Assembly (NCBI GenBank): GCA_024228575.1
Contig: JAAETH010000678.1
Location: 1 to 47,330, forward strand
DNA: 47,330 nucleotides
Origin: Actinomycetes bacterium
Lineage (GTDB): Bacteria; Actinomycetota; Acidimicrobiia; Acidimicrobiales; Poriferisodalaceae
Direction: 5' to 3'
Made by a program: the position numbers and the translations under genes. The notes below the pieces were generated by a model. The model worked only from the letters and a program-made list of their open reading frames with translations, was not told the origin of the DNA and did not search any database. This document shows positions 1 through 39,048 of this stretch, piece after piece. Numbering within the stretch: the stretch's first letter is position 1; every line of letters starts with the position of its first letter.

Positions 1-2058
1 ATGTGTTCGCCCACCCGCGCCTGTGTGCTGACCGGCCGAAACCATCACGCCGTCGGATTCGGACAGATCCCCGAGTACGCCACCGACTTCGACGGCTACG
101 TCGGCGAGATCCCGAGGTCGGCGTCCACAATCGCCGAGGTGCTGAGCGAGTATGGCTACGCCACGGCTGCGTTCGGGAAGTGGCACAACACGCCGATCGA
201 CCATGTGAATCGCAATGGCCCCTTCGACCGCTGGCCAACGGGACACGGCTTCGACTATTTCTACGGGTTCGTGGCTGCCGAGACCTCGCAATACGAGCCA
301 CGATTGTTCGAGAACACGACGCCGATCGAACCACCGGACGGACCCGGCTACCACCTCACCGAAGACATGGCGGACAAGACGATCTCGTACCTCCGTCGTC
401 GCCGAAACACCGCACCCGACACTCCGGTGCTGATCTATTTCACACCCGGTGCAGTTCATGGACCACACCACATCCCCAACGAGTGGGCCGACCGCTACGC
501 AGGGGTGTTCGACGACGGTTGGGAAGCGCTGCGCGAACGAACCTTCGCTGCCCAGCTCGAGTCCGGATGGATTCCCCCCGACGCCGAGCTGACAGCGATC
601 GACCCAACGATGCAACGCTGGGACGACGTCCCCGAGGAGCACCGCCGCTTCCAGTCACGGTTGATGGAGGTCTATGCCGGGTTCGCCGAACACACCGACC
701 ACCAGTACGGCAAGGTGCTCGATGAGCTAGAAGCCCAAGGCGAGCTCGACAACACCCTGATCTTCTACTTGAACAGCGACAACGGCGCCTCAGCAGAGGG
801 GATGTTCGGAACCATCTCCGAAATCCTGTGCCAAAACGGGTTCCGTGTGCCCGTCGATGAACAGATCGAGATCCTCGACCGCGACTACGGCGGTATGGAC
901 ACCCTCGGTACCGAGATGGTCGACAACCACTACCACGCCGGTTGGGCATGGGCCACCGACACACCGTTCAAGTCGACCAAGCTGGTGGCCGCACACTTCG
1001 GTGGTACCCGCACACCACTCGCCATCGCGTGGCCGAAAGGTTTCGCCCACGATCCTGTTCCACGCGATCAGTTCCACCATGTCATCGATGTGGCGGCCAC
1101 CATCTACGACGTCCTCGGGATCGATCCCCCGGCCGAGGTCGGCGGGGTATCGCAGACCCCGATCGACGGGGTCTCGCTCGTTCCATCTTGTCGCGACGCC
1201 GCAGCGGAGTCGGGCCACACAACCCAGTACTTCGAGATCATGGGTAGCCGAGGTATCTACCACGAAGGCTGGTTCGCTGGCGCGTTCGGACCGCGCAACC
1301 CGTGGGATCCGCAGTACAACCGATTCCGAGGATGGGATCCCGATGAGGATCGATGGGAGTTGTACGACCTTCGTGCCGACTACAGCCAGGCGACCGACCT
1401 CGCCGATGCCCAGCCAGAGAAGCTGGCCGAGCTGCGCGAGCAGTTCGATCAGCATGCCGAGGCGAACCAGGTGTTCCCGATCGGCGGTGGTCTGCTCACA
1501 TCGGTCTTCCGGCCCGACCTCATGAAGTCGAACACCGTCGACAGGTGGATCTTCGACGGCGACGACGACCGAATCGCCGAAGCGATGGCCCCGAAGTACC
1601 TGAGTGGATACTCCAGCCGATCAACAGTGCGATTCAGCGCCGGACCCAATGACAGTGGTGTGCTGTTCTGCGTGGGTGGAATCACCGGTGGGTTCACGGT
1701 TTACGTCGATGCAGGCATCCTGGCAGCGGAGTACAACACCGGTGGAGTCGAACGAACCACGGCTGTCGCGCCCGATGCGATGGCGGCAGGCGACCACGAG
1801 GCCATCATCGAACTCGTCATGGAAACGACCAGACACCGCAGCCCCGCCCAGCTGAACATCGACCTCGACGGCCGACGAGTTGCCAGCACACGTGTGGGAC
1901 GGACCATGCCTGCCATGTTCAGTTTCTCGGAGACCTTCGACGTCGGCAAGGACCTCGGCTCACCTGTCTCGCTGGTGTACGCCACCCGCAAACCGTTCGC
2001 GTTCAGCGGCAACATCGAAACCGTGGAGTGCACGTACCTCGAGACCAAAGAACCCTGA
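1..2058 (+). CDS. Arylsulfatase (formylglycine sulfatase), 5' partial
   Basis: Hydrolyses sulfate esters. The window opens inside the gene: the first visible residues are the sulfatase signature CSPTR, whose Cys is converted to formylglycine in active type I sulfatases, and this motif normally lies 60-90 residues into the protein. The ATG at base 1 is therefore an internal Met and the true start is upstream. Other family marks are GKWHN (about residue 60, metal and sulfate ligands), DNGAS (about 260, Ca-binding Asp/Asn) and PFKSTK (about 323). The 685 visible residues plus the missing N-terminus fit the roughly 780-residue arylsulfatase class that carries a C-terminal beta-rich extension. No signal peptide can be judged because the N-terminus is absent. 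The next gene on the strand starts 200 bp downstream, so operon membership is uncertain. Confidence 0.93.
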   Translation: MCSPTRACVLTGRNHHAVGFGQIPEYATDFDGYVGEIPRSASTIAEVLSEYGYATAAFGKWHNTPIDHVNRNGPFDRWPTGHGFDYFYGFVAAETSQYEPRLFENTTPIEPPDGPGYHLTEDMADKTISYLRRRRNTAPDTPVLIYFTPGAVHGPHHIPNEWADRYAGVFDDGWEALRERTFAAQLESGWIPPDAELTAIDPTMQRWDDVPEEHRRFQSRLMEVYAGFAEHTDHQYGKVLDELEAQGELDNTLIFYLNSDNGASAEGMFGTISEILCQNGFRVPVDEQIEILDRDYGGMDTLGTEMVDNHYHAGWAWATDTPFKSTKLVAAHFGGTRTPLAIAWPKGFAHDPVPRDQFHHVIDVAATIYDVLGIDPPAEVGGVSQTPIDGVSLVPSCRDAAAESGHTTQYFEIMGSRGIYHEGWFAGAFGPRNPWDPQYNRFRGWDPDEDRWELYDLRADYSQATDLADAQPEKLAELREQFDQHAEANQVFPIGGGLLTSVFRPDLMKSNTVDRWIFDGDDDRIAEAMAPKYLSGYSSRSTVRFSAGPNDSGVLFCVGGITGGFTVYVDAGILAAEYNTGGVERTTAVAPDAMAAGDHEAIIELVMETTRHRSPAQLNIDLDGRRVASTRVGRTMPAMFSFSETFDVGKDLGSPVSLVYATRKPFAFSGNIETVECTYLETKEP

Positions 2059-2257
2059 CCTCCGGGCAGCCAAGCGGAGCTCCGAGTTGGATCTGGAGTT
2101 CACCGGCCGAGACCACGCCGCAGGCCACCGAGACAAACATCACCAATCCATCGTCTCCTCCGATGTCAGCACCAGTGCCCAAGACAACCTCCATCAGACC
2201 GTCGAGGGCCTGCAAACTCGGTAACGTGGCGCTGGACACGAACCGAGGGGATGTCCA

Positions 2258-3463
2258 ATGCAAACACTGTTCATCGGTGGCCGGCTCTTCGATGGGATGA
2301 ACGCTCCAACCGACGGGGTGGCAGTACTCGTAGAAGATGGGGTGATCGCCCGTGTCGCCCCCGATGCGGAGTTCGAGGGTTTCGGTGGGCGCATCATCGA
2401 CACCTCCGGCGGCACATTGATGCCCGGCCTCATCGATTGCCACGTGCATCTGTGCCTCGGCGGCGAGAGCGATCCTCGGGCGATGCGCGAGGGGATGGAT
2501 CCTGGCTACCTGGTGCTGGCCGGTCTGCAACGCGCACAGGCAACACTGGCGGGCGGGATCACAGCCATCCGCGACTGTGGCGGCATGGACTATCTCGAAT
2601 TCGCCATTCGTGATGTGTGCAACAGCGGGGCCCAGCTCGGCCCGACGATCCGTGCCGCTGGGAAAATGATCTGTATGACCGGCGGCCACGGCAACGCTAT
2701 CGGCAGGGTGGCCGATGGTGCCGACGAGGTCGTCAAGGCGGTGCGTGAGCAGATCCATGCCGGATCCGATTTCGTGAAACTCATGGCAACCGGAGGTGTG
2801 CTGACACCGGGTGTCAACCCGGAGGACGCTCACTTCACGCTCGAGGAGATCTCCGCCGGGATCCACGAAGCCCACCGGTTCCACAAGCGCACAGCTAGCC
2901 ATGCCCAGGGCACCGAGGGGATCCTCAATGCCACCCGGGGTGGGGTCGACAGCATCGAACACGGCATGTTCATGACCGACGAGTGCGTCGAGGAGATGGT
3001 GGCTCGTGGGACCTATCTCGTGCCGACCCTCGCCGCCGGCCATCGAATCCAAAACGATGAAGCGCTGCAGGCGATACTTCCGGCGTTTGTGCGGGCCAAG
3101 ATCGACCGCATCAGCGGAAAGAGTGCTGCCTCGCTCAAGCTGTTCTACGACGCCGGCGGCAAGGTGGCGATGGGCACCGATGCCGGTGTGCCGTTCTGCA
3201 TGCATGGCGACAATGCCCGCGAGCTCGAGTTCATGGTCGAGGCGGGTGTGAGTCCTCTCGACGCCCTCATCGCCGGCACATCCAATGCCGCCGATCTGCT
3301 TGCACTCGAGAACGAGGGGAGCCTGGCCGAGGGCAACGCTGCCGACCTGTTGGTCGTCGATGGCGATCCATCGGACGACATCCTCATGGCAGCCCGCACC
3401 GAAAACCACCGCATGGTGGTGAAGCGCGGTCTGATCGTGAACGAGGTGTCCCTCATCAGGTAG
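2258..3463 (+). CDS. Metal-dependent amidohydrolase (imidazolonepropionase/prolidase-like)
   Basis: A 401-residue amidohydrolase-superfamily enzyme that hydrolyses C-N bonds with a binuclear metal centre in a TIM barrel. The first metal motif HVHL lies near residue 65 after a GLID turn. A Lys in DFVKLMATGG (about 174) can be the bridging carboxylated lysine. His residues in ASHAQG (about 213) and IEHGMF (about 238) and the Asp in GTDAGV (about 309) complete the ligand set. The C-terminal segment ending in GNAADLLVVDGDP is the usual beta-sandwich closure. The ATG at 2258 is preceded by GAGGGG. The family covers Xaa-Pro dipeptidases, imidazolonepropionases and other cyclic amide hydrolases; the substrate cannot be assigned from sequence alone. 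It faces the GFA gene convergently with 84 bp between them. Confidence 0.9.
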   Translation: MQTLFIGGRLFDGMNAPTDGVAVLVEDGVIARVAPDAEFEGFGGRIIDTSGGTLMPGLIDCHVHLCLGGESDPRAMREGMDPGYLVLAGLQRAQATLAGGITAIRDCGGMDYLEFAIRDVCNSGAQLGPTIRAAGKMICMTGGHGNAIGRVADGADEVVKAVREQIHAGSDFVKLMATGGVLTPGVNPEDAHFTLEEISAGIHEAHRFHKRTASHAQGTEGILNATRGGVDSIEHGMFMTDECVEEMVARGTYLVPTLAAGHRIQNDEALQAILPAFVRAKIDRISGKSAASLKLFYDAGGKVAMGTDAGVPFCMHGDNARELEFMVEAGVSPLDALIAGTSNAADLLALENEGSLAEGNAADLLVVDGDPSDDILMAARTENHRMVVKRGLIVNEVSLIR

Positions 3464-29510: not shown

Positions 29511-30482
29511 TCAGCGGCCAGTAGAGTGCTGAACCTGCTCTGCGATCCAGTCGTAGGTCGCTGCCATGCCGTCGGCGAGCGAGGTTGACGGCTCCCACGC
29601 AAGTCTCGCCCGCACCAGATTGTTGTCGGAGTTGCGACCGCGCACTCCTTGCGGTGCGGTGAGATCGTGCTCGCGGGTGATCTCGATGTCGGCGATTCCG
29701 GCTACAAGATCGGTGAGATCGTTGATCGAGATCAAGTCCTCTGAGCCGATGTTGATCGGCTCGCGTACAGACGACTCCATGAGACGTCGGGCTCCGTCGA
29801 CACAGTCGTCGACGAACAGGAACGACCGCGTCTGCTCACCATCACCCCAGACAGGAATGACGTGGTCTCCACTGCGCACCGCCATGGCCACCTTTCGACA
29901 GATGGCAGCAGGAGCCTTCTCTCTCCCACCGTCCCACTCGCCGTGAGGTCCGTAGACATTGTGGAAACGCGCAATACGAGTCTCGAGCCCAAAATCCTCG
30001 AAGAAGTGGCGACACATCCGCTCGGAGAAGAGCTTCTCCCAGCCATAACCATCTTCAGGCATCGCCGGAAGGGCATCGGATTCGGCGAGCGAGGTCACAC
30101 CCGGGCGCTCCTGCAGATGATGCGGATAGACACACGCGGACGATGAGAAGAAGTACCGAGAGGCACGGGCCGCAACCGCTGCCTCGAGCAGGTGAGTGTT
30201 GATGAGCACGTTCAGCATGCAGAGCGCCTTGTTCTGCTCGATGAATCCGATCCCACCCATGTCCGCGGCCAGGTTGTAGATGTCGTCCACACCCGCCACT
30301 GCGGTACGGCACTCCGAAGCCAGGCGCAGGTCGGCCACCATGTTCTCCGCACCGGCGTGAACCTGGTGCCATCGATCCAACGCCTTGATGTCGACAGCTC
30401 GCACCGAAGCGCCGCCGGCAAGAAGTGAGGCGACCAGATGCCCACCGATGAAGCCCCCGGCTCCGGTTACAAGAACTGTCAT
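29511..30482 (-). CDS. GDP-mannose 3,5-epimerase-like NAD-dependent epimerase
   Basis: A 323-residue short-chain dehydrogenase/epimerase. The Rossmann motif is VTGAGGFIGGHL at residue 4, the catalytic S-Y-K set is in YFFSSSACVYP and DGYGWEKLFSERM, and the body has RFHNVYGPHGEW and GGREKAPAAICRK. The latter strings, with ADMGGIGFIEQN, WGDGEQTRSFLFVDDCV and GVRGRNSDNNLVRA, match plant GDP-mannose 3,5-epimerase nearly block for block, more closely than other sugar epimerases. The expected product is GDP-L-galactose (and GDP-L-gulose) from GDP-mannose. It is divergent from a run of glycosyltransferase genes with 58 bp between starts, so it probably supplies their nucleotide sugar. Active bacterial homologues exist, but substrate here is inferred. 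Confidence 0.9.
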   Translation of the reverse strand: MTVLVTGAGGFIGGHLVASLLAGGASVRAVDIKALDRWHQVHAGAENMVADLRLASECRTAVAGVDDIYNLAADMGGIGFIEQNKALCMLNVLINTHLLEAAVAARASRYFFSSSACVYPHHLQERPGVTSLAESDALPAMPEDGYGWEKLFSERMCRHFFEDFGLETRIARFHNVYGPHGEWDGGREKAPAAICRKVAMAVRSGDHVIPVWGDGEQTRSFLFVDDCVDGARRLMESSVREPINIGSEDLISINDLTDLVAGIADIEITREHDLTAPQGVRGRNSDNNLVRARLAWEPSTSLADGMAATYDWIAEQVQHSTGR

Positions 30483-30540: not shown

Positions 30541-31737
30541 ATGCGCTGGATCAAGAGACCACCGCCAGGCGTCCGGTACGTTTCCTGGCCCGGGGTGGGT
30601 GGTTATCCGAGTGTCGCTCGGCACTACATGCAGGCGCTTCTTCGAGGCGGTCGCCGCCTCGAGTGGATTCCGGTCGCTCCAGGTTCCCTCGATTCCCAGC
30701 CCGACCCCGACAACCGCCGAGCGCGGAGGACGGCTTCGAAACACTCGACCCCTGGGGTCGATCAACGGGCCCTCACGAGGTGTATCGGACGTCCGGTCGA
30801 TCCCACCGCCCAGATGCTTCACGTAGTACCCGAGATGTGGCACGACCGTCTTGCCGAGGGAATCCCCACCCTCGGCATCACCGTCTGGGAGACCGATCGA
30901 CTGCCTGCGGAATGGCCCGACATCATCAATGCGACGGACGGCGTCATCGTGCCGTCGGAGTTCAACGCCCAGGTGTTCGCCGACTCAGGCATCTCTTGTC
31001 CCATCCACGTGGTCCCCCACATCGCCCCGTCCTCGTGCCAAACAATCACAGACCGACAGATGGAGGAGTTCCGCCGGGTTCACGGGATTCCCACCGGTCA
31101 CACCGTCGTCTACTTCCTGGAAGCGTGGACGGTTCGGAAGGGGCCGTGGCGCAACCTGAGGGCGTTCCTGGATGCATTCGACGGGATCGACGGGATCACT
31201 CTCGTGGTGAAGTCCGACGAGTTGGGTCAACGATCGGCCATCGACATCGCAAGCTATCCCGTCGTCGATCAGGTCGAGGCAATCGTCGAGCGGTACACCC
31301 GGCCGCCCCCGGTCGTAGTGATCGCCGGCGATGTCACGAGCCGCACGATCGAGGTGCTGCATGCCGTCGGCGATGTCTATCTCTCACTCACCCACGGTGA
31401 AGGGTGGGGCCTTGGCGTATTCGAAGCGGCCGCGGCATCCAATCCGGTCATCACCACGGGATGGGGCGCGGTCACCGACTTCCTCGGTGTTGACTGGCCC
31501 GGATTGGTTGACTTCGAGCTTGTCCCTGTCGTTCACGCACGCGACCATCGCTCCTACGGCATCGATCAACGATGGGCGAGTCCCTCCCACGACCACGCCG
31601 TCGATCTTCTGCGAGCGACGGTGGCAGACCTGCCCTCACAACGCGCCTCGATCGGAACCGTTGCCCACCACCTACAAACGAGCTACACCGAGGGAGTCGT
31701 AGGCCCTCTCCTCATCCAAACACTGGACTCGATTTGA
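30541..31737 (+). CDS. GT4-like glycosyltransferase
   Basis: A 398-residue GT-B glycosyltransferase, first gene of a four-gene plus-strand run. Recognisable parts are PGVRYVSWPGVGGYPSVARHY at the start, then LGITVWETDRLPAEWPDIIN, VIVPSEFNAQVFADSGI with IHVVPH, FLEAWTVRKGPW, and SLTHGEGWGLGVFEAAAASNPVI near the C-terminus. The GEGWG...E string is the nucleotide-sugar binding E-x7-E motif of GT4 enzymes. I set the start at the ATG 30541, where the sequence after the divergent epimerase begins; the longer frame runs back into that gene. The donor and acceptor are unknown. It overlaps the next gene's TTG start by TTGA. Confidence 0.85.
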   Translation: MRWIKRPPPGVRYVSWPGVGGYPSVARHYMQALLRGGRRLEWIPVAPGSLDSQPDPDNRRARRTASKHSTPGVDQRALTRCIGRPVDPTAQMLHVVPEMWHDRLAEGIPTLGITVWETDRLPAEWPDIINATDGVIVPSEFNAQVFADSGISCPIHVVPHIAPSSCQTITDRQMEEFRRVHGIPTGHTVVYFLEAWTVRKGPWRNLRAFLDAFDGIDGITLVVKSDELGQRSAIDIASYPVVDQVEAIVERYTRPPPVVVIAGDVTSRTIEVLHAVGDVYLSLTHGEGWGLGVFEAAAASNPVITTGWGAVTDFLGVDWPGLVDFELVPVVHARDHRSYGIDQRWASPSHDHAVDLLRATVADLPSQRASIGTVAHHLQTSYTEGVVGPLLIQTLDSI

Positions 31738-32585
31738 GCTCACCTCCCCCAGCGTTCCACTTCATCTTCGGTCTCCGCGACCAGACTGCGCCGTTCCATC
31801 TCGCCCATTGGTTGGCTCTGGCCTCATGTGTTCGGCTCCATCCCGAAGCCAAGGTATTCCTTCATCTCGGCAACGAACCATGGGGGCCGTGGTGGGACCG
31901 ACGTCCTGCTTCGATCGAGATCCGTCGGGTCTCGCCGGTTGAATGGCTCGAAGATCATCCGGCGTACTACGAACACACCGAAGGGCGCGACATAGTCGGC
32001 TGGGATCTCGGCTATGCCCACCATGCCGATCTCATCCGGCTCGAGATCCTTCGCGACGAAGGCGGCATCTATGCCGACATCGACACCTTGTTCGTGAAAC
32101 CGTTCCCGGCGAGCTACGCCCACCACAACTTCGCCATCGGCGAGGAGGACGCCACCGGGTACAACGACACCCGGGTCGTCGACCGGCCCCTCTGCAACGC
32201 GATGATGAGCGCTCGGGCGGGCTCTGCTTTCGCCACCGCCTGGCTCGAACGGATTGCGGTCGTCTTCGATGGGTCATGGAGTCGGCATTCCTGCCAAGAA
32301 GCGGCCTTGCTCGCCGCAGCGATGCCGGCTGACGTGACAGTTCTCGGACCCGAGGCGCACCTCTCCATCCCCTGCACGCCCGACGGGCTCACCGACCTCT
32401 TTGGTCGCGATGTGGACCTTCCGGAGCAAGCCCTCAGCATCCACTGGTGGGAACACGTCTGGTGGAGCCCGCTGCGCCGCGACTTCATCGATTTCAGTCA
32501 GACCGACCTCACCGAGAACTACGTGCTTCACGCGAACACCACCTTTGCCCGTCTCGCCCGGCCCACCCTTCTCGATCCGCCATGA
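31734..32585 (+). CDS. GT32-like glycosyltransferase
   Basis: About 283 residues starting at a TTG that overlaps the TGA of the previous gene. The N-terminus (FHFIFGLRDQTAPFHLAHWL) and the LIRLEILRDEGGIYADIDT segment with the D-x-D sugar-nucleotide/metal motif place it with GT32-type (Och1-like) enzymes that transfer mannose or related sugars. A further motif is HLSIPCTPDGL, and IHWWEHVWW is near the C-terminus. The TTG is a coupling start because the frame upstream runs through the previous gene. Its stop overlaps the ATG of the GT10 gene by ATGA, so all three are probably co-translated. Substrates are unknown. Confidence 0.82.
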   Translation: MSSPPPAFHFIFGLRDQTAPFHLAHWLALASCVRLHPEAKVFLHLGNEPWGPWWDRRPASIEIRRVSPVEWLEDHPAYYEHTEGRDIVGWDLGYAHHADLIRLEILRDEGGIYADIDTLFVKPFPASYAHHNFAIGEEDATGYNDTRVVDRPLCNAMMSARAGSAFATAWLERIAVVFDGSWSRHSCQEAALLAAAMPADVTVLGPEAHLSIPCTPDGLTDLFGRDVDLPEQALSIHWWEHVWWSPLRRDFIDFSQTDLTENYVLHANTTFARLARPTLLDPP

Positions 32586-33559
32586 TCGAGGTCCTCAACC
32601 CGTTCGCTGCTCCCGACACATCCGACGCCGAGCTCGAGATCCTGCTGTGGGACCCCCATTGGTTCCCCGACTCCTACAACGATCCACTCGTGGCGCTCAC
32701 TCCCAACGGGGCGCGGATCGTCACTCGGTTCTCCACCGACCGATCCCGCGCCGCCGAGGCCGATGCCATCTGGGTCCATCCGCCCACGATGCGACAGCTG
32801 CCACCCAAGAGCGACGATCAGCCCTGGGTGCTCTGCTCGATGGAGGCGGACCACAACTACCCGTTCCAGGCCAGTCTTGCTGCCGACGCCTTGTTCGACA
32901 TCACGATGACCTACCACCGCGGCAGCGACGTGCCGACCCCCTACGCCAACCGAGCCCAGTACGACGGGTTCGCCCGAACACGAAGTCGACCCCACCGTGC
33001 CGATGCGATCGCTAGCTTCATAGCGTCCAATCCCGTGCCCGAGCGCGACGACTATGTCACCGAACTGATGCACTTCGTACCGATCGCGGCGTTTGGAGCC
33101 TGTCTCCGAAACCGCGACTTCGACGAGATCGTCGGCACCGGCCTCGATCGCGGGCAGGCTGCGGAGATGGTGATCGCGTCGTATGGTTTCAGCCTGGCGT
33201 TCGAGAACTGCTTGGCCGACGAATACGTCACCGAGAAGTTGTACCGACCGCTCGCCATGGGCACGATCCCCGTCTATTGGGGCGCTCCCGATCTGGACGG
33301 GTTGGTACCGGACCGCACCTCCGTCATCGAAGTGATCGACGAAGAACCAGAGGAGCTCGCGAACCTGCTGGTCGAGCGTGCCTCCGACACCGAGTGGCTC
33401 GAAACAACCCTCGACTGGCCCAACCGTCCCGCTCATCCCGCGTTCGATCGGCTCCTCGATGTCACCGACGTCGACCCCCGCGCCCGGCTGGCGACCAAGA
33501 TCGCCCACGGTTGTGATTCGTCGTGCCGTTGTGGCGGACGGCTCGACCCCGTCTCATGA
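32582..33559 (+). CDS. GT10 (alpha-1,3-fucosyltransferase-like) glycosyltransferase
   Basis: A 325-residue protein whose residues 203-234 are the GT10 donor-binding motif: FSLAFENCLADEYVTEKLYR followed by PLAMGTIPVYWGAPD. This closely matches alpha-1,3-fucosyltransferases that use GDP-L-fucose. The N-terminal domain binds the acceptor and is less conserved; it has a Trp-rich start (ILLWDPHWFPDSYND). The gene starts in an ATGA overlap with the GT32-like gene and ends in an ATGA overlap with the next. GT10 enzymes can also use GDP-L-galactose in some cases, and the neighbouring epimerase is predicted to make it, so the donor may be L-galactose and not fucose. That is an inference. Confidence 0.85.
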   Translation: MIEVLNPFAAPDTSDAELEILLWDPHWFPDSYNDPLVALTPNGARIVTRFSTDRSRAAEADAIWVHPPTMRQLPPKSDDQPWVLCSMEADHNYPFQASLAADALFDITMTYHRGSDVPTPYANRAQYDGFARTRSRPHRADAIASFIASNPVPERDDYVTELMHFVPIAAFGACLRNRDFDEIVGTGLDRGQAAEMVIASYGFSLAFENCLADEYVTEKLYRPLAMGTIPVYWGAPDLDGLVPDRTSVIEVIDEEPEELANLLVERASDTEWLETTLDWPNRPAHPAFDRLLDVTDVDPRARLATKIAHGCDSSCRCGGRLDPVS

Positions 33560-34335
33560 AGGTCATCGGCCTCACCTACGCAACCAGTGACTTTGCGCCG
33601 TACGCAGCCCTTTTGGCGGCATCGTCACGGAAGGCGGGAGTCGATGAGTTCACGGTCTACACCCCCGCCGACATCGACCCAGAGTTCCGGCACCAACATC
33701 GACAGATCCTCGATGCACAACGGGGAGCCGGCTATTGGCTCTGGAAGCCGCTGCTGATCGCACAGACGTTGCGCGTCGCTCTCGAGGGTGACCTTGTCCT
33801 GTGGGTCGACGCGGCTGCTCATTTCGCCGGTCCCGTCAACGGGATCGTCGAGGCGATCGACAGGGCCGGGCTGGACATCTTGTTGATGGGCGAAGGATTC
33901 ACCGAGTCGGCATTCACCAAACGCGACACCTTCATCGGTCTCGATGCTGACGAGCCCGCCATCACCGACTCACCACAGCGCTTCGCCAGCTGTATCGCCG
34001 TTCGCAACACGGCTTCATCACGGGAGTTCATCGATCGTTACCTCGCCGCATGTTCGGACCCACGACTGATCACGGACGCTGCCAACGTCATGGGCGCAGA
34101 CAACTACGCCGACTTTCGCGATCACCGCCATGATCAATCGATCCTCAGTATCTTGAGCAAACAAGCGCGGATCCCGGTGATCCCCAACGGGTTGGTCGCC
34201 GAGGGTCTCTCCCCACCTGGCTCTCAGGTCATCAACCACACGCGCCGACACGTGAGCGCCACCCAGGTGTTGACCCACCTCCTCGCCCATGGCCTCGCCA
34301 CAACCGAGGACCTGGCCGCGATGCGGCTGCAGTAG
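33556..34335 (+). CDS. Glycosyltransferase-like protein, unknown family
   Basis: A 259-residue protein following the GT10 gene through an ATGA overlap. The start is MKVIGLTYATSDFAPYAALL, then GAGYWLWKPLLIAQTL, and DLVLWVDAAAHFAGPV: the LWVDA string is a GT-A-like D-x-D-type position. A later block, NYADFRDHRHDQSILSILSK, resembles acceptor-binding parts of polysaccharide-synthesis proteins. The YWLWKP motif is frequent in sugar-transferase-like proteins of bacterial surface-glycan loci. I therefore assign it as a putative glycosyltransferase without a known substrate. It is the last gene of the plus-strand run; the convergent minus-strand operon ends six bases away. Confidence 0.68.
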   Translation: MKVIGLTYATSDFAPYAALLAASSRKAGVDEFTVYTPADIDPEFRHQHRQILDAQRGAGYWLWKPLLIAQTLRVALEGDLVLWVDAAAHFAGPVNGIVEAIDRAGLDILLMGEGFTESAFTKRDTFIGLDADEPAITDSPQRFASCIAVRNTASSREFIDRYLAACSDPRLITDAANVMGADNYADFRDHRHDQSILSILSKQARIPVIPNGLVAEGLSPPGSQVINHTRRHVSATQVLTHLLAHGLATTEDLAAMRLQ

Positions 34336-34340
34336 TCGAC

Positions 34341-35108
34341 TCAGCTTCCCAAAGTGAGCTCGACGAGATCGTCACCAACACGGATCCTGACAGGTCGCCT
34401 CGAGATGGGATACTCGGCGAGCGCAACCCGAAGCTCATCGATCTCCAATCTCAGCTGGGCCTCGGAACGGTGCTTCCAGTTCGAGATCCGTCGGTGGTGC
34501 TCCTCGGGCCAGACATTCTGGCCGGTGAAGCGATACACGTACAGCTGCCCCATCTGCTGCAGGGACGTCACGCGGCGCCCACCTGAGATGAGGTCGGTCA
34601 CGATCTGGGTGTCCTCTCCCCGATCGATCTCGGGATAGCTCGGCATGGATTCGACACGGGCGAGGAGCGAGCCCTGGATGAAACACCCGGGGAACGCTTC
34701 TACCGTCCAGTCGTCCCAGAACAGCTCGCCGGACTCTGTGAAGAGGTGGAGTTGGTCGGTCATGAAACACGCCGCTGCATCACTCGCCTCGAGCTGAGCG
34801 ACCTGGGCCGCGATCCGTGCGGGGTGGTAGAGATCGTCGTCGTCCCACTGGCAGACCAATGCACCTCTGGCGATCCCCACCGCGGTGTTTCGCAACGCTC
34901 CCAACGGCGCCGATTCCGTCTCGTGGATCTGAGCATCGAAATGAAAATGAGCGGCGAGGGCTACCAGTTGGCTGTTGAGATCGGAACCACCGTCGTGGAC
35001 GACGACCAGCTCCCGATCCTCGTAGGACTGGGCGGCAAAACAGACCATCGCATCCCTCACCGAGTCGACCCGGCCCGGTTGGGTCACCATGAGGGCGCTG
35101 ACCTTCAT
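34341..35108 (-). CDS. GT2-family glycosyltransferase
   Basis: A 255-residue GT-A enzyme, last gene of the minus-strand operon. Features: VSALMVTQPGRVDSVRDAMV at the N-terminus, VVVHDGGSDLN (nucleotide-sugar region), LGALRNTAVGIARGALVCQW followed by DDDDLYHP (metal-binding Asp cluster) and FMTDQLHLF, then GCFIQGSLLA and RGEDTQIVTDLI near the catalytic base region. The start at 35108 lies in an ATGA overlap with the GT32 gene; the ORF extends further without support. Its domain arrangement is typical of inverting GT2 enzymes. The sugar and acceptor are unknown. Confidence 0.88.
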   Translation of the reverse strand: MKVSALMVTQPGRVDSVRDAMVCFAAQSYEDRELVVVHDGGSDLNSQLVALAAHFHFDAQIHETESAPLGALRNTAVGIARGALVCQWDDDDLYHPARIAAQVAQLEASDAAACFMTDQLHLFTESGELFWDDWTVEAFPGCFIQGSLLARVESMPSYPEIDRGEDTQIVTDLISGGRRVTSLQQMGQLYVYRFTGQNVWPEEHHRRISNWKHRSEAQLRLEIDELRVALAEYPISRRPVRIRVGDDLVELTLGS

Positions 35109-36061
35109 TCGAGAGACCCGGTCTGGCGGAGTGAACCGAGATGCGAGATCTTGACACACACCCATGGTTCGATTCCCGGTTTGAACCACCCTCCGTCGGC
35201 CTGTGCCGGTTCAAGAGTTGCATCCCGCGACTTCAAGAAACCGTTGAAGTTGAACCCGATGGCTCCGTCATCGGCCGAACACCGTTCCACCAGTGGTCCG
35301 ATGTCGTCCCCGTGACACTGAACGTAGGCCAGGTCGTGGCCGGGCAGGTCAGAGTTCCGGAACAACACATACCCCTCGGGGGCGACCACGGGCGTGGGGA
35401 GTTGGACGTTCCACGTCTCGGTGTTGTGGTGTACCGCAGCGAGTGCCCGCTGCTCGCGCACCGCTTCCAACCTCGGATCCTCGAGAGCCGGATTCTGGGC
35501 GATCACGCCGACGGGACAGACGAGGTCGAGACCCAGAATGGTGATGTCGTCGCCACCCCACGCCGCGAGTTCGGTGGCCAACATGTTCGGACCGGTGTTG
35601 TCGAAGATGTCCTGATGGGTGATGTCGGAGCGACGAATCGCGGGAAGTCGACGTATGAGTCGGTCGAAGAACGGATGGTTGGGCGGTGCAGCCATCAGGG
35701 CATTGCTCGTCACCGTTTGGGTGATCATCGGCCCTGCCTCCATGGAGAACGTGAGCCCGGGGCCCAGCAAGGTTTCGAGGGAGCGAAAGACCTCCACGTC
35801 GAGATCGAGGTAGAGCCCACCGCGGGAATGGAGGATGAAGTACCTCACCGCGTCTACCCGTTCGATGTCGTGGGCATAACTGTCATAGGTCGGCAAGAAC
35901 CACGGGTAGTCGTCGCAGATCAGCGCCCGATTGTGAGCATCGGTCCAGAGGATGTGTTCGTGATTGGGATGTTGGTCTCGAACCGTGCGCTGCCACTGTG
36001 CCTGAGCCGGCGGCAGAACTTCGCTCTTCCATGTTTGATGGATCACCTTCGGGACGTTCAC
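35105..36061 (-). CDS. GT32-family glycosyltransferase
   Basis: A 318-residue protein beginning VPKVIHQTWKSEVLPP, the hallmark start of GT32 sugar transferases (Och1/capsular type). Next comes HILWTDAHN and RYFILHSRGGLYLDLDVEVF, where LDLD is the D-x-D sugar-nucleotide/Mn site. Further on is NTGPNMLATELAAWGGDDI, and HHNTETWN, also common in the family. The GTG start overlaps the TGA of the upstream GT2-TPR gene (GTGA), and its stop overlaps the next ATG (ATGA). It is therefore translationally coupled on both sides. Substrates are not known; family members often add mannose or galactose. Confidence 0.9.
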   Translation of the reverse strand: MNVPKVIHQTWKSEVLPPAQAQWQRTVRDQHPNHEHILWTDAHNRALICDDYPWFLPTYDSYAHDIERVDAVRYFILHSRGGLYLDLDVEVFRSLETLLGPGLTFSMEAGPMITQTVTSNALMAAPPNHPFFDRLIRRLPAIRRSDITHQDIFDNTGPNMLATELAAWGGDDITILGLDLVCPVGVIAQNPALEDPRLEAVREQRALAAVHHNTETWNVQLPTPVVAPEGYVLFRNSDLPGHDLAYVQCHGDDIGPLVERCSADDGAIGFNFNGFLKSRDATLEPAQADGGWFKPGIEPWVCVKISHLGSLRQTGSLE

Positions 36062-37179
36062 GTGGAGAGGTGTTCACTCAGAACGCGCCGGGCCCGAAAC
36101 TCGAGATTGGTCGGATCCGCGATTTCTGCCTCGGCGAAGTGGGTCGCGGCGAAGGTGTGTTGTCCGAGGTCGTGGTACGCGCGACCCAGCAGGCCGTGGA
36201 GTCCCGATCCGAATGTGGTCTCGTCGTAGCCGAAGTCGCGTGAAAGGCCGTCGGCCCGGATCTCGGTGAGCAAGGCGCTCAGGACATCGATTGCTTCGGC
36301 TTGCCGATCGGCTTCGAGCAGGAAGCGGCCGCGCAGCCACCTCAACATGGGGTCGGCCGGAAACGCCGTCAGCGCTTGCTCGAACAGCGCTTCGTTCGCA
36401 TCGGCCGCGCCGCGCGGTGGGTTGAGCAAGGCGATGAACGCCAGACTGTCCGCCGGCCGACGCACCCCGACCCGTCCGAGAGCAGCCACGCTCTCGTACC
36501 ACGCGTCGCGGCCGGCCTCGATCTCCCCCATCTCGACCAATGTCGCACCCAGGTGCCACCAGCAATAGACATGGTCGGGGTCCTGGGCGAGGGCCTTGCG
36601 GAGCAGGGGGAGATTGCGCGGGTGTTTGTGCTCTTGAGGTCCGTCGTACCCGACATGATCGAGAACCGCCTCGGTCTCCGCGATGGTGGATCCCTCGGAC
36701 AACATCAAGGCCTCGATCCCGGGCCAAATCGTCTCATGGATCACACCGCGGAATCGTATCTGCGGGTGGTTCCTGAAGAGCCGCAACTCCCGGTAGGCAT
36801 CGTGGCCGGTACGGGCATGAAGGTTCAGAGTCGCGCCGATGTCCGAGCGGCCAGAGAGCGCAGAACGCAGCCGATCAGGATCGATGGGACGCAACCGTTC
36901 GTCGGCGTCGATGTAGAGGATCCAATCACCGGTGCACCGCTCGAGTGCGTGATTGCGCGCCGCGGCAAAGTCTTCGGGCCAGACAATCTCGTCGAGAACG
37001 GCTCCGGCCGCGACGGCGAGCTCGCGGGACGTATCCGACGAACCTGTGTCCACCACGATGATCTCGTCGACGATGCCATCGAGGGAAGCGAGACAATCGG
37101 GAAGATGGTTCGCCTCGTTCTTGACAATGAGCGCGGCCGAAACCGTGATACGGCGCCGCCCGAGGCGACGCAGAAGCAT
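36058..37179 (-). CDS. GT2 glycosyltransferase with C-terminal TPR domain
   Basis: A 373-residue two-part enzyme. Residues 10-220 form a GT2 domain: VSAALIVKNEANHLPDCLAS, IIVVDTGSSDTSRELA, WPEDFAAARNHALERCTGDW followed by ILYIDADERL (D-x-D), and an FRNHPQIRFRGVIHETIWP acceptor loop. From about 170 on come TPR-like helical repeats (PLLRKALAQDPDHVYCWWHL, ALFEQALTAFPADPML, GLHGLLGRAYHDLGQHTFAA). This order is shared with SunS, the S-glycosyltransferase of sublancin, and similar peptide glycosyltransferases, where the TPRs bind the peptide. Its gene lies 32 bp after the Tat repeat-protein gene, so the repeat protein is its most likely acceptor; that is an inference. Confidence 0.88.
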   Translation of the reverse strand: MLLRRLGRRRITVSAALIVKNEANHLPDCLASLDGIVDEIIVVDTGSSDTSRELAVAAGAVLDEIVWPEDFAAARNHALERCTGDWILYIDADERLRPIDPDRLRSALSGRSDIGATLNLHARTGHDAYRELRLFRNHPQIRFRGVIHETIWPGIEALMLSEGSTIAETEAVLDHVGYDGPQEHKHPRNLPLLRKALAQDPDHVYCWWHLGATLVEMGEIEAGRDAWYESVAALGRVGVRRPADSLAFIALLNPPRGAADANEALFEQALTAFPADPMLRWLRGRFLLEADRQAEAIDVLSALLTEIRADGLSRDFGYDETTFGSGLHGLLGRAYHDLGQHTFAATHFAEAEIADPTNLEFRARRVLSEHLST

Positions 37180-37211
37180 CTATCGCCCTGTTCGGATCGG
37201 CGTCAGCCGCG

Positions 37212-37571
37212 CTACCGGCGACCGCGACCCCGACGCCATCCCCATCGGCGGCCACGACCGCGACCGCGCCCGTGTCCATGTCCGTGTCCGCCCGGCATGT
37301 TCGACCCGTGGGGCATGTTCGAACAGTGGGGCATGTTCGAACCGTGAGGCATATTCGAACAATGGGGCATGTTCGAACCGTGAGGCATGTTCGAACAATG
37401 AGGCATGTTCGAACCGTGAGGTGCATGCGCAGCCATTGCGCCATCGAGGGTGAACGATGAAACCACTGGAGCGGCGTACACCGCGGCACCACCTACGAGC
37501 ATGCGCTTCAGCATCTTGCGTCGGCTGAGCGGGGCGCTGTTGACGAGTTCGCCCAATTGGTCATCAGTCAT
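37212..37571 (-). CDS. Tat-signal hexapeptide-repeat protein, candidate precursor peptide
   Basis: A 119-residue protein. Residues 16-24 (SRRKMLKRM) form a twin-arginine motif, followed by a hydrophobic segment (LVGGAAVYAAPVVSSF) and an A-M-A type cleavage region near residue 47, a Tat-export leader. Residues 51-92 are seven perfect six-residue repeats: four PHGSNM alternating with three PHCSNM (Cys59, 71, 83). The end is PGGHGHGHG then an RGRGRG/RRWGWRRGRGRR tail. GGGAG precedes the ATG at 37571; 21 residues of upstream ORF are not expected to be translated. The neighbours are a PqqD chaperone upstream and a SunS-like GT downstream. Ser and Cys are possible glycosylation sites, while His/Cys/Met-rich repeats would also suit copper or other metal binding. 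No known family was recognised. Confidence 0.85.
   Translation of the reverse strand: MTDDQLGELVNSAPLSRRKMLKRMLVGGAAVYAAPVVSSFTLDGAMAAHAPHGSNMPHCSNMPHGSNMPHCSNMPHGSNMPHCSNMPHGSNMPGGHGHGHGRGRGRGRRWGWRRGRGRR
37296..37421 (-). repeat. Tandem 18-bp repeat array (7 copies) inside the precursor gene
   Basis: Seven head-to-tail 18-bp units, each with the same TTCGAA core and coding HGSNMP or HCSNMP. The CAY-GGT/GGG and CAY-TGT variants alternate, so the real period is 36 bp (12 residues). Differences are synonymous or at the Gly/Cys position. This indicates recent duplication of a 36-bp unit and selection on the protein. Such an array may vary in copy number between strains. Confidence 0.9.
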
Positions 37572-37630
37572 GGAATCTCCCTCTAGGTCATCGACCTGGA
37601 CGCTGAGTGTAGCGGCGAGTACGTGGCTCC

Positions 37631-37885
37631 TCAAACATCGACCACCCCGAGCCGCAACAACTCGGCGATCGCAGTCTCGACATCGGCAACGGGAGCGGCC
37701 TCGAGCCGGTAACTACGTTTCATGAGCTCGGCGATGTCGTTTGCATCGAGTTCGCCGTCGCAGAGTGCAAAAACGATCGCCGCAGTCTCGTTGAGATAGT
37801 GGACAACTCCGGATGCAGAATCGTGGATGACGAAGCCGCCGTCGGAGGCGATCACCTCGAGAGAGGGGTTTGCTTTGGGTTTCAT
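37631..37885 (-). CDS. PqqD-family peptide-modification chaperone
   Basis: An 84-residue PqqD-like (RiPP recognition element) protein. Typical blocks are a short basic start (KPKANPSLEVIAS), GGFVIHDSASGVVHYLNETA followed by AIVFALCDGELDANDIAELM and VADVETAIAELLRLGVV. These form the winged-helix-like fold that binds leader peptides of ribosomally synthesised, post-translationally modified peptides and hands them to modifying enzymes. The ATG overlaps the stop of the preceding GT4 gene (ATGA). The next gene, 59 bp downstream on the same strand, encodes the Tat repeat protein, so that is the obvious client. No radical-SAM or other classical PqqD partner enzyme is in the window. Confidence 0.9.
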   Translation of the reverse strand: MKPKANPSLEVIASDGGFVIHDSASGVVHYLNETAAIVFALCDGELDANDIAELMKRSYRLEAAPVADVETAIAELLRLGVVDV

Positions 37886-39048
37886 GTTCTTGCCTGGTTC
37901 TGTCGGCCGGGTACCGCTCGAGAAGCGGCAGCTGTGGACTGCCCAAAGAGTGGCGAGTCTCGAAGATACCGCTTCATCGATCGCCGGCGGAGCCTGCTGG
38001 CGAGTCCATCCAGGGTTTGGGTGAACTCCTCGAGTACGACCGGCCAGGCGTGGTTGGCTCGCACGGACGGACCGATGGCCGCAGCAGCCAACATGTACCG
38101 GTCGTGATCGTCGACCATCTGTCGAAGTGCCACCCGCAGATCGTCACCGCCGTCGTCGACACCCTCTATGCAGAGCGAGACCGTGGGGTCGAGATAGTCG
38201 ACCATGCCCCCTGCAAGGGTGGCGAGTACCGGCGTCTCGCAGGCGAGGGCCTGGAGGGGAACGAGACCAAAACCTTCTGCGACGGAGGGATGTACAAGGC
38301 AGTCCGGGTGTGACAGGACTGCGGCATATTCCTCGACCGCAAGTGGGAACATCGGCTGGATTCGGATGGCATCGCCGAAGTCGTACCGATTGCGGAGTGC
38401 TGCAAGCTGGCTGGATACCTGTGTCCGAAGGACCAGAACGGCTTCTTCGCCGGTCACACCGAACACGTCGAGAAAGGCCTCGACGAGGGTCGGCACACCC
38501 TTCCTAGCGAGCGTCGAGGATTCGTAGAACGTATTGAAGAAACGGAATGGGCCATCCTCGCGAGGCCCCCGCACGGGCCGATAGCCGGGCTCCAACCCAT
38601 GGGGCACAACCATGATCGGGGCGACGACCCCACTCGCCGAAAACGCCCTGGCGCAGAACGTGCTCGGCACCACGATCAAGTCGAACCGGTTGCAGGAATC
38701 AACCCACGAGGTCGGAATCGTCGGCGCCTCACAGACAAACCCACCGACCGACACGTTGTGGTCAAAAACAAGGTCGGGGACCTCGTTGGGGAAGCCGTAG
38801 AAGAACCCCACCGGCGCCGAGCGGTCGATACCTGCGTGGTCGTACAGACCAGGTTCATAGAAGTTGCCGCCGTTGTAGCTGTATACCCCGACGCGACCGA
38901 CCCTATCGACGAGGTGTTGGGCAATTTGGGTACACACCTGGGCGATCGACCATGCCCCTTCGAACATCCCGTACATCTGCACGCGCCGGCGCGACAGGGG
39001 TCGACCCGCGAAGGAGAAATCGAACCTCGACCCGACGTCTACATCCAT
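37882..39048 (-). CDS. GT4-family glycosyltransferase, start of the peptide-glycosylation operon
   Basis: A 388-residue GT-B enzyme similar to the plus-strand GT4 in the same locus. It has FDLIVVPSTFCARAFSASGV, PIMVVPHGLEPGYRP, TFYESSTLARKGVPTLVEAF, and SHPDCLVHPSVAEGFGLVPL with QALACETPVLAT, the E-x7-E donor motif region. Its stop overlaps the PqqD ATG (ATGA), so PqqD is co-translated with a glycosyltransferase, an unusual link. The ATG at 39048 has no strong ribosome site; a Met 24 residues in is an alternative. The donor and acceptor are unknown, but the surrounding genes suggest the Tat repeat peptide or a lipid or cell-wall glycan as acceptor. Confidence 0.88.
   Translation of the reverse strand: MDVDVGSRFDFSFAGRPLSRRRVQMYGMFEGAWSIAQVCTQIAQHLVDRVGRVGVYSYNGGNFYEPGLYDHAGIDRSAPVGFFYGFPNEVPDLVFDHNVSVGGFVCEAPTIPTSWVDSCNRFDLIVVPSTFCARAFSASGVVAPIMVVPHGLEPGYRPVRGPREDGPFRFFNTFYESSTLARKGVPTLVEAFLDVFGVTGEEAVLVLRTQVSSQLAALRNRYDFGDAIRIQPMFPLAVEEYAAVLSHPDCLVHPSVAEGFGLVPLQALACETPVLATLAGGMVDYLDPTVSLCIEGVDDGGDDLRVALRQMVDDHDRYMLAAAAIGPSVRANHAWPVVLEEFTQTLDGLASRLRRRSMKRYLRDSPLFGQSTAAASRAVPGRQNQART

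Follow-up and report, generated by a model that had tools for sequence, protein, structure and literature searches.

The DNA analysed here, hereafter the window, is a stretch of 47,330 nucleotides from an Acidimicrobiales bacterium of the family Poriferisodalaceae (assembly GCA_024228575.1, contig JAAETH010000678.1). Between positions 34,341 and 39,048, its minus strand carries genes for a GT4 glycosyltransferase, a PqqD-family protein, a small protein with a leader of the twin-arginine translocation (Tat) type (hereafter the precursor), a GT2 glycosyltransferase with a TPR part (GT2-TPR), and two further glycosyltransferases of the GT32 and GT2 types. This order, and the gene overlaps, had been proposed in an initial annotation of the sequence, and were confirmed by gene calls and Pfam searches (Table 1). 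The GT4/PqqD, GT2-TPR/GT32 and GT32/GT2 junctions each overlap by four bases, the last of these with the start codon at 35108 that the gene caller chose. A TatC gene (228 bits) is present in the same genome. I report here how far the PqqD, precursor and GT2-TPR genes are conserved together, and what their association suggests.

Conservation of the three genes

In a search of 119 genomes, including that of the window, the precursor found matches in 4 and PqqD in 12. The two proteins were searched separately, and outside the window their matches adjoin in G095 (gap of 89 bases) and G082 (gap of 922). A further precursor match, in G078, was rejected as an effect of composition: it covers the repeats only (residues 55–97), and no Tat-PqqD pair was seen within 6.5 kb on either side.

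Searching 397 genomes of the order with a PqqD profile of seven rows gave matches in 48 at E 1e-6. Of the places matched, 14, spread over 11 genomes, reach at least 83 bits, and the next one reaches 57. When 396 genomes of the phylum were searched with a 13-row profile at E 1e-10, 14 had a match. Finally, a pattern scan of a species-genome collection, for which a closer five-row alignment was used since the seven-row one is too diverse, gave 33 PqqD loci, four of which duplicate earlier ones. This yields 43 distinct loci including the window, all chosen by PqqD (numbered L below, with G for genomes), which were compared with 24 control loci of 4 to 20 kb that contain other PqqD matches, most of them weaker. 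The two groups are divided by the search they came from and not by one score line: with the local PqqD model, the best control, L129, reaches 77 bits and some of the 43 reach less, L110 and L111 scoring 38 and 45.

At distances of up to 6.5 kb from the best PqqD match, local models identified GT2-TPR in 28 of the 43 loci, GT4B in 26, GT4GYG in 20, HprK-like genes in 20, GT32H in 13, GT10 in 5, FkbM in 4 and the epimerase in 3; an FkbM gene lies farther off in L069, which brings the FkbM loci to 5/43. The 24 control loci gave no match to GT2-TPR. A precursor was recognised in 36 of the 43, in 31 by a strict leader motif described below, in four (L026, L028, L069, L109) by a relaxed form of it, and in L084 by eye (FVVPTMVSF). 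Spurious relaxed-motif candidates were dropped, namely the second in L066, L086, L088 and L106, the second and third in L087, and the only one in L111. In 26 of the 28 GT2-TPR loci (the exceptions being L026 and L083) the precursor, encoded on the strand of the GT2-TPR match, ends 3–78 bases upstream of it.

The trio is present in Actinomycetota, in Alphaproteobacteria (Bradyrhizobium, Mesorhizobium, Reyranella, Acidocella) and in one Acidobacteria metagenome-assembled genome (MAG). Gammaproteobacteria, Deltaproteobacteria and Stygiobacter MAGs possess PqqD and precursor, with no GT2-TPR in the stretch examined. Co-occurrence of PqqD, Tat-repeat protein and GT2-TPR in relatives had been set beforehand as a test able to refute the initial annotation, and it is borne out in several phyla, 26 of the 28 loci with GT2-TPR having the leader-bearing gene directly upstream.

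The PqqD protein and the leader motif

The window PqqD matches PF05402 at 34.1 bits (cut-off 23.4, E 3.6e-8). Its structure was predicted with a mean local confidence (pLDDT) of 95.8, and the best Foldseek matches of the model are 6jx3_B (E 5.9e-4, TMq 0.80) and 5v1v_A (E 4.6e-3, TMq 0.82). Both are lasso peptide recognition elements, TfuB1 and TbiB1, in complex with leaders; TfuB1 also came first in a profile search with the PqqD family. Such a RiPP recognition element (RRE), where RiPP stands for ribosomally synthesized and post-translationally modified peptide, binds the leader of a precursor.

In relatives, the PqqD domain is fused to an FkbM methyltransferase in L066, L069, L070 and L128, and to a GT4 glycosyltransferase in L069. 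Pfam searches confirmed the fusions of L066 and L070 and the GT4 fusion; the PqqD part of the L069 FkbM protein reaches 23.3 bits against the cut-off of 23.4, and the L128 fusion, outside the Pfam check, was assigned by local models only. The tie between PqqD and glycan enzymes that the initial annotation had drawn is upheld by these four FkbM fusions and one GT4 fusion, and nothing else points as strongly to glycan enzymes as the ones that the RRE serves. Fusions of an RRE with a glycosyltransferase had been noted earlier as possible new RiPP clusters (PMC7470986; PMC12710340).

In the precursor of the window, the leader contains SRRKMLKRM followed by a hydrophobic run. Precursor leaders share the motif [YFW]xxPx[VIL]x[ST][FMY], which in the window is YAAPVVSSF. 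This strict motif matched 37 times in 881,917 six-frame residues, compared to a mean of 3.3 (range 1–6) in 20 shuffles; the 37 matches comprise 35 precursor leaders (31 loci), one match in a modelled gene and one spurious match (L070). By locus, the first motif residue is F in 27 of 31, Y in three (window, G095 and Reyranella) and W in one. The shared motif is close to Y/WxxP, to which RREs of the lasso type bind. Recognition depends on YxxP in lasso systems and on W/Y/LxxP/L/I in several PqqD-like groups (PMC12710340), and in a Bacillota RiPP the complex reportedly does not form without YxxP (PMC13381572).

The twin arginines are less constant than this motif. L092, L098, L102 and L103 have KR in place of RR, and in Reyranella (L090) the motif is kept as YEAPRVVTF, directly before GT2-TPR, with neither twin arginines nor a hydrophobic run. 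The motif thus outlives Tat targeting, and the Tat motif seems the more dispensable of the two. To judge from these sequences, the likely recognition element is the Y/F/WxxP motif inside the Tat hydrophobic region.

Whether the motif stems from ordinary Tat signals was examined in six genomes of the order. Five of them gave matches, at 47 places, of which 44 were inspected; a crude filter left 32 apparently well-formed Tat signals, not all of which are true ones. The looser pattern RR..[YFW]xxP is found in five of the 32, including the window and G225 (5.5 kb from a PqqD match), and the full motif, by reading, only in the window leader, so that this source was rejected.

At least eight of the 24 control loci (L027, L032, L033, L075, L130, L132, L133, L135) encode Tat proteins whose hydrophobic region contains WxxP; several of these are Cys-rich, and they are without GT2-TPR. 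They are perhaps a wider class of PqqD-Tat peptides.

The GT2-TPR enzyme

Against PDB sequences, the profile of the GT2-TPR family gave GmaR as the best match (1.1e-41), with SunS at 4.3e-28. The predicted structure (pLDDT 93.1) has ThuS (4.2e-18) and SunS (5.1e-18) as its best fold matches, the next protein being at 9.3e-9. The SunS equivalog model TIGR04195 gives 47.8 bits, the cut-off being 350. The initial annotation had called the enzyme SunS-like; by its structural model it is SunS-like in fold, yet it is no SunS equivalog.

A second GT2-TPR relative is encoded in the same genome (G000:C466:90307-90999, 144.6 bits), within a frame of 755 residues. Among plasmids, two Planctomycetota records matched GT2-TPR; in one of these the annotation, which is all that was consulted, shows no small gene before the match.

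The mature part of the precursor

The precursor has no Pfam or NCBIfam match. The initial annotation had described its 119 residues as made of hexapeptide repeats. Seven such units, PH[GC]SNM with G and C alternating, are indeed present, and they cover 42 of the 119 residues; Tandem Repeats Finder reports a period of 36 bp over 37294–37421, with 3.6 copies, 93% matches and a score of 221.

The type of repeat varies between loci: PHGSNM in the window, GGNQT in G095, PNQYx in L066, FPNQT in L068, DGGSNTT in L067, NGS in L026, GGGGNT in L069 and EGPNTVD in L091. Common to all is asparagine. The pair [SPGA]-Asn follows the leader in 31 of 31 precursors from the 27 loci with both genes, where background composition predicts 8.3 (maximum 18 in 2,000 draws, uncorrected for descent and repeats), and in six of six mature parts of 9–17 residues, where 0.43 are expected; the mature parts of L069 (long frame) and L087 were cut by hand. 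The sequon N-X-S/T occurs in 25 of the 31. In six loci with short mature parts and no nearby GT2-TPR, [SPGA]N is found in one (Fisher p 2.5e-5). These are six of the nine precursor loci without GT2-TPR, and the p value hangs on the exclusion of L024, L089 and L097, which have long mature parts and of which L089 and L097 do contain Ser-Asn. As [SPGA]-Asn is shared by all 31 precursors, asparagine is a likelier acceptor than cysteine or serine, the residues named in the initial annotation.

Several precursors depart from the simple arrangement of leader and repeats. A Peptidase_S74 domain is found in three that were examined (L092, L104, L108). Acidocella loci contain two or three precursor genes in tandem (L104 7123-7973, L105 7172-8473, L108 7175-8030), some with Peptidase_S74. 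In an Alphaproteobacteria MAG (L089 6260-7081) and a Deltaproteobacteria MAG (L097 6404-7072), the leader is fused to pentapeptide repeats after CSN motifs. L101, L106 and L109, of Ilumatobacter type and Acidimicrobiaceae, have PTTT-rich mature parts and an HprK-like gene, with no GT2-TPR in the stretch examined, and perhaps represent another glycan type.

Proposed mechanism and alternatives

The reading that I favour, with a probability of about 0.68, is an RRE-guided cytoplasmic glycosylation of a Tat-exported peptide, with asparagine as the favoured acceptor. PqqD would bind the [Y/F/W]xxPxV motif within the hydrophobic region of the Tat leader, retain the precursor in the cytoplasm, and deliver it to the SunS-fold GT2-TPR encoded next to it. 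This enzyme would add the first sugar to asparagine of the mature part, and the other glycosyltransferases, in relatives together with FkbM methyltransferases, would extend and decorate the glycan. PqqD may cover the Tat signal until glycosylation is done, and its release would then permit TatC-dependent export, in the manner of the redox enzyme maturation protein (REMP) chaperones. Binding, glycosylation, acceptor residue, sugar order, export and its gating are all steps that I infer. The HprK-like (20/43) and FkbM (5/43) genes of relatives suggest further modifications.

A more far-reaching version, which I hold only tentatively, is that this is a new RRE-dependent class, in which the Tat signal is itself the RRE leader, PqqD gates export, and GT2-TPR is a new cytoplasmic Asn glycosyltransferase, unrelated to GT41 and to the oligosaccharyltransferases; the same logic of Tat signal, WxxP and PqqD would then cover Tat peptides without glycosyltransferases. 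The proposed system would bring together the recognition of RiPP leaders, the quality control of Tat export and the glycosylation of proteins in bacteria, three fields that are rarely combined, and would make testable how cells could ensure the glycosylation of a peptide before its export. It also provides a candidate for a glycosyltransferase that acts on asparagine and comes from a different fold family, together with mature parts that are naturally as short as 9–17 residues. Relatives occur in Reyranella sp. CPCC 100927 and Bradyrhizobium diazoefficiens SZCCT0138, whose records carry no MAG label, so that bench work seems possible.

A number of observations weigh against the favoured reading. 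On the side of the leader, the window sequence scores 12.9 bits with the Tat-signal model TIGR01409 (cut-off 16.7), F takes the first motif place in 27 of the 31 strict-motif loci although the sources, in the parts available, name W, Y and L, and the strict motif also occurs in five of the 24 control loci (seven matches), two of these matches being Tat leaders near other PqqD genes (L032, L130). Concerning the enzyme and its substrate, whole-length agreement of GT2-TPR with SunS and ThuS is moderate (TMq 0.53–0.65, root-mean-square deviation 3.1–13.9 Å), the window repeats have no N-X-S/T, as is the case in five more of the 27 loci, and the mature parts of L102 and L103 are mainly Thr-rich. 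As for the comparison itself, seven of the 43 loci have no recognisable precursor, nine precursor loci lack GT2-TPR in the stretch examined, the 43 loci are not independent by descent, and the models were seeded from them (GT2-TPR from 7 of the 28 loci, PqqD from 13 sequences).

The alternative that survives best, unlikely as I consider it, is the same system with another acceptor: GT2-TPR would modify a serine, threonine, cysteine or tyrosine adjacent to the asparagine, the latter belonging only to the recognition site. The PDB titles of SunS and ThuS call them S-glycosyltransferases, serine precedes asparagine in every unit of the window, and S, T or Y lies two residues after 62 of 124 Asn; the threonines of L102 and L103 point the same way. 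Against this, no hydroxyl or thiol residue holds a fixed place across all repeat types: Ser, Thr and Cys are missing from PNQYQ, and Tyr from GGGGNT and PHGSNM. Asparagine alone is found in 31/31 precursors, and the six shortest mature parts all contain it together with threonine (6/6).

It is improbable that [YFW]xxPxV merely reflects a constraint on Tat signals or membrane anchors, with PqqD not its reader. The motif does sit in the hydrophobic region, and the looser pattern in 5/32 apparently well-formed Tat signals fits such a constraint; its full form in the window leader alone among those 32 (by reading), its persistence in L090 without a Tat signal, and the match of the PqqD fold to RREs that read YxxP do not.

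Slightly less probable again is that PqqD serves the HprK-like kinase or an unseen enzyme, the glycosyltransferases building a surface glycan unrelated to the peptide. The region is rich in glycosyltransferases and HprK-like genes adjoin PqqD in 20/43 loci, but the window and others keep PqqD, precursor and GT2-TPR with no HprK-like match, PqqD is fused to FkbM and GT4, and GT2-TPR directly follows the precursor in 26/28 loci. Last, many glycosyltransferase genes lie on both strands here, and a chance neighbourhood in such a region is nonetheless disfavoured, to the point of being very improbable, by the same gene order in distant phyla.

Comparison with known systems

The lasso B1 proteins share with the window PqqD the PF05402 family, the fold, and an aromatic-xxP motif in the partner leader; the Tat-type leader, and a glycosyltransferase as partner enzyme, set the present system apart. 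Among the ten genes of the window scanned against Pfam, there is neither a lasso B2 protease nor an asparagine-synthase-like cyclase, nor a glycocin peptidase-ABC exporter, the rest of the window being outside that scan. The glycocin S-glycosyltransferases SunS and ThuS resemble GT2-TPR in possessing a GT2 domain and a helical C-terminal part, with a small peptide gene adjoining, and differ in that Asn-centred repeats, a Tat-type leader and an RRE are found here; the double-glycine leader of glycocins is absent from the window leader, which is of Tat type by reading.

GmaR, the best PDB sequence match of the GT2-TPR family profile, is the flagellin O-GlcNAc transferase of Listeria, and the substrate proposed here differs. 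HMW1C/NGT are cytoplasmic N-glycosyltransferases of family GT41 that act on asparagine; residue and compartment would be the same, whereas the window enzyme is a GT2 with TPR. REMP chaperones such as TorD and DmsD stay on a Tat signal until the protein has matured. PqqD belongs to an unrelated protein family, and the maturation would here be glycosylation. In the accessory-Sec systems, serine-rich repeat proteins are glycosylated in the cytoplasm before export; these use a Sec-type route and other enzymes, and have no RRE.

The HPr-rel-A system (TIGR04352/TIGR04353) is similar in that PqqD and HprK-like genes are close together in 20/43 loci. The window PqqD however scores 30.0 bits with the HPr-rel-A PqqD model (cut-off 35), the kinases of three relatives score 20.0, 27.2 and 39.0 bits against 200, and the window set has no HprK-like match. 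The fusions of RRE-Finder (PMC7470986) also join an RRE to a glycosyltransferase, and the available part of that paper describes no Tat leader, motif or acceptor. No published account of PqqD with Tat leaders and glycosyltransferases was recognised in a literature search that left preprints and most subscription papers outside.

Other features of the window and its relatives

Plus-strand genes at 30541–34335 converge with the minus-strand set and extend the cluster past 34341–39048 (Table 1). The epimerase/dehydratase beyond them is perhaps a supply of nucleoside diphosphate (NDP)-sugar.

Table 1. Genes of the window cluster and parts of the precursor.
Feature	Position	Strand	Basis
GT4 glycosyltransferase	37882..39048	-	PF00534/PF13692; overlaps PqqD gene by 4 bases
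PqqD-family RRE protein, 84 aa	37631..37885	-	PF05402; fold match to leader-bound lasso RREs
Precursor, 119-aa Tat-leader repeat protein	37212..37571	-	Open reading frame; relatives in 36/43 loci
Precursor: twin-arginine stretch RRKMLK, residues 17-22	37506..37523	-	Sequence
Precursor: leader motif YAAPVVSSF, residues 32-40, proposed PqqD-binding site	37452..37478	-	Strict motif in 31/43 loci
Precursor: seven PH[GC]SNM units, residues 51-92, proposed acceptor region	37296..37421	-	Repeat finding; Asn pattern
Precursor: Gly/His/Arg-rich tail, residues 93-119	37215..37295	-	Sequence
GT2-TPR enzyme, 373 aa, proposed polypeptide glycosyltransferase	36058..37179	-	PF00535 and TPR; GmaR/SunS relatives
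GT32-type glycosyltransferase (Gly_transf_sug)	35105..36061	-	PF04488
GT2 glycosyltransferase	34341..35108	-	PF00535
Gene without Pfam match, end of convergent set	33556..34335	+	
GT10 (fucosyltransferase-type)	32582..33559	+	PF00852; GT10 near PqqD in 5/43 loci including window
GT32-type glycosyltransferase	31734..32585	+	PF04488; relatives in 13/43 loci
GT4-like gene	30541..31737	+	Pfam 20.0 bits, below cut-off 27; relatives in 20/43 loci
NAD-dependent epimerase/dehydratase	29511..30482	-	PF01370, 140.4 bits; near PqqD in 3/43 loci including window

Elsewhere in the genome of the window (L153, G000:C183), a frame truncated by the end of its contig encodes a Tat signal and, in the mature part, QGSNPGPPTPVSPTPVS, and adjoins an HprK-like match (36 bits, 1993-2424, minus strand). 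The start of this frame might be the last part of a PqqD domain, which would make it an RRE-precursor fusion; I do not claim it as one, as the PqqD model gives 1.8 bits there and there is no Pfam match. In another PqqD locus, L028 (9622-11382 and 12180-12458), a protein matches GT61 and sulfotransferase families, and the Tat peptide has no Asn and a tail that is basic and hydrophobic.

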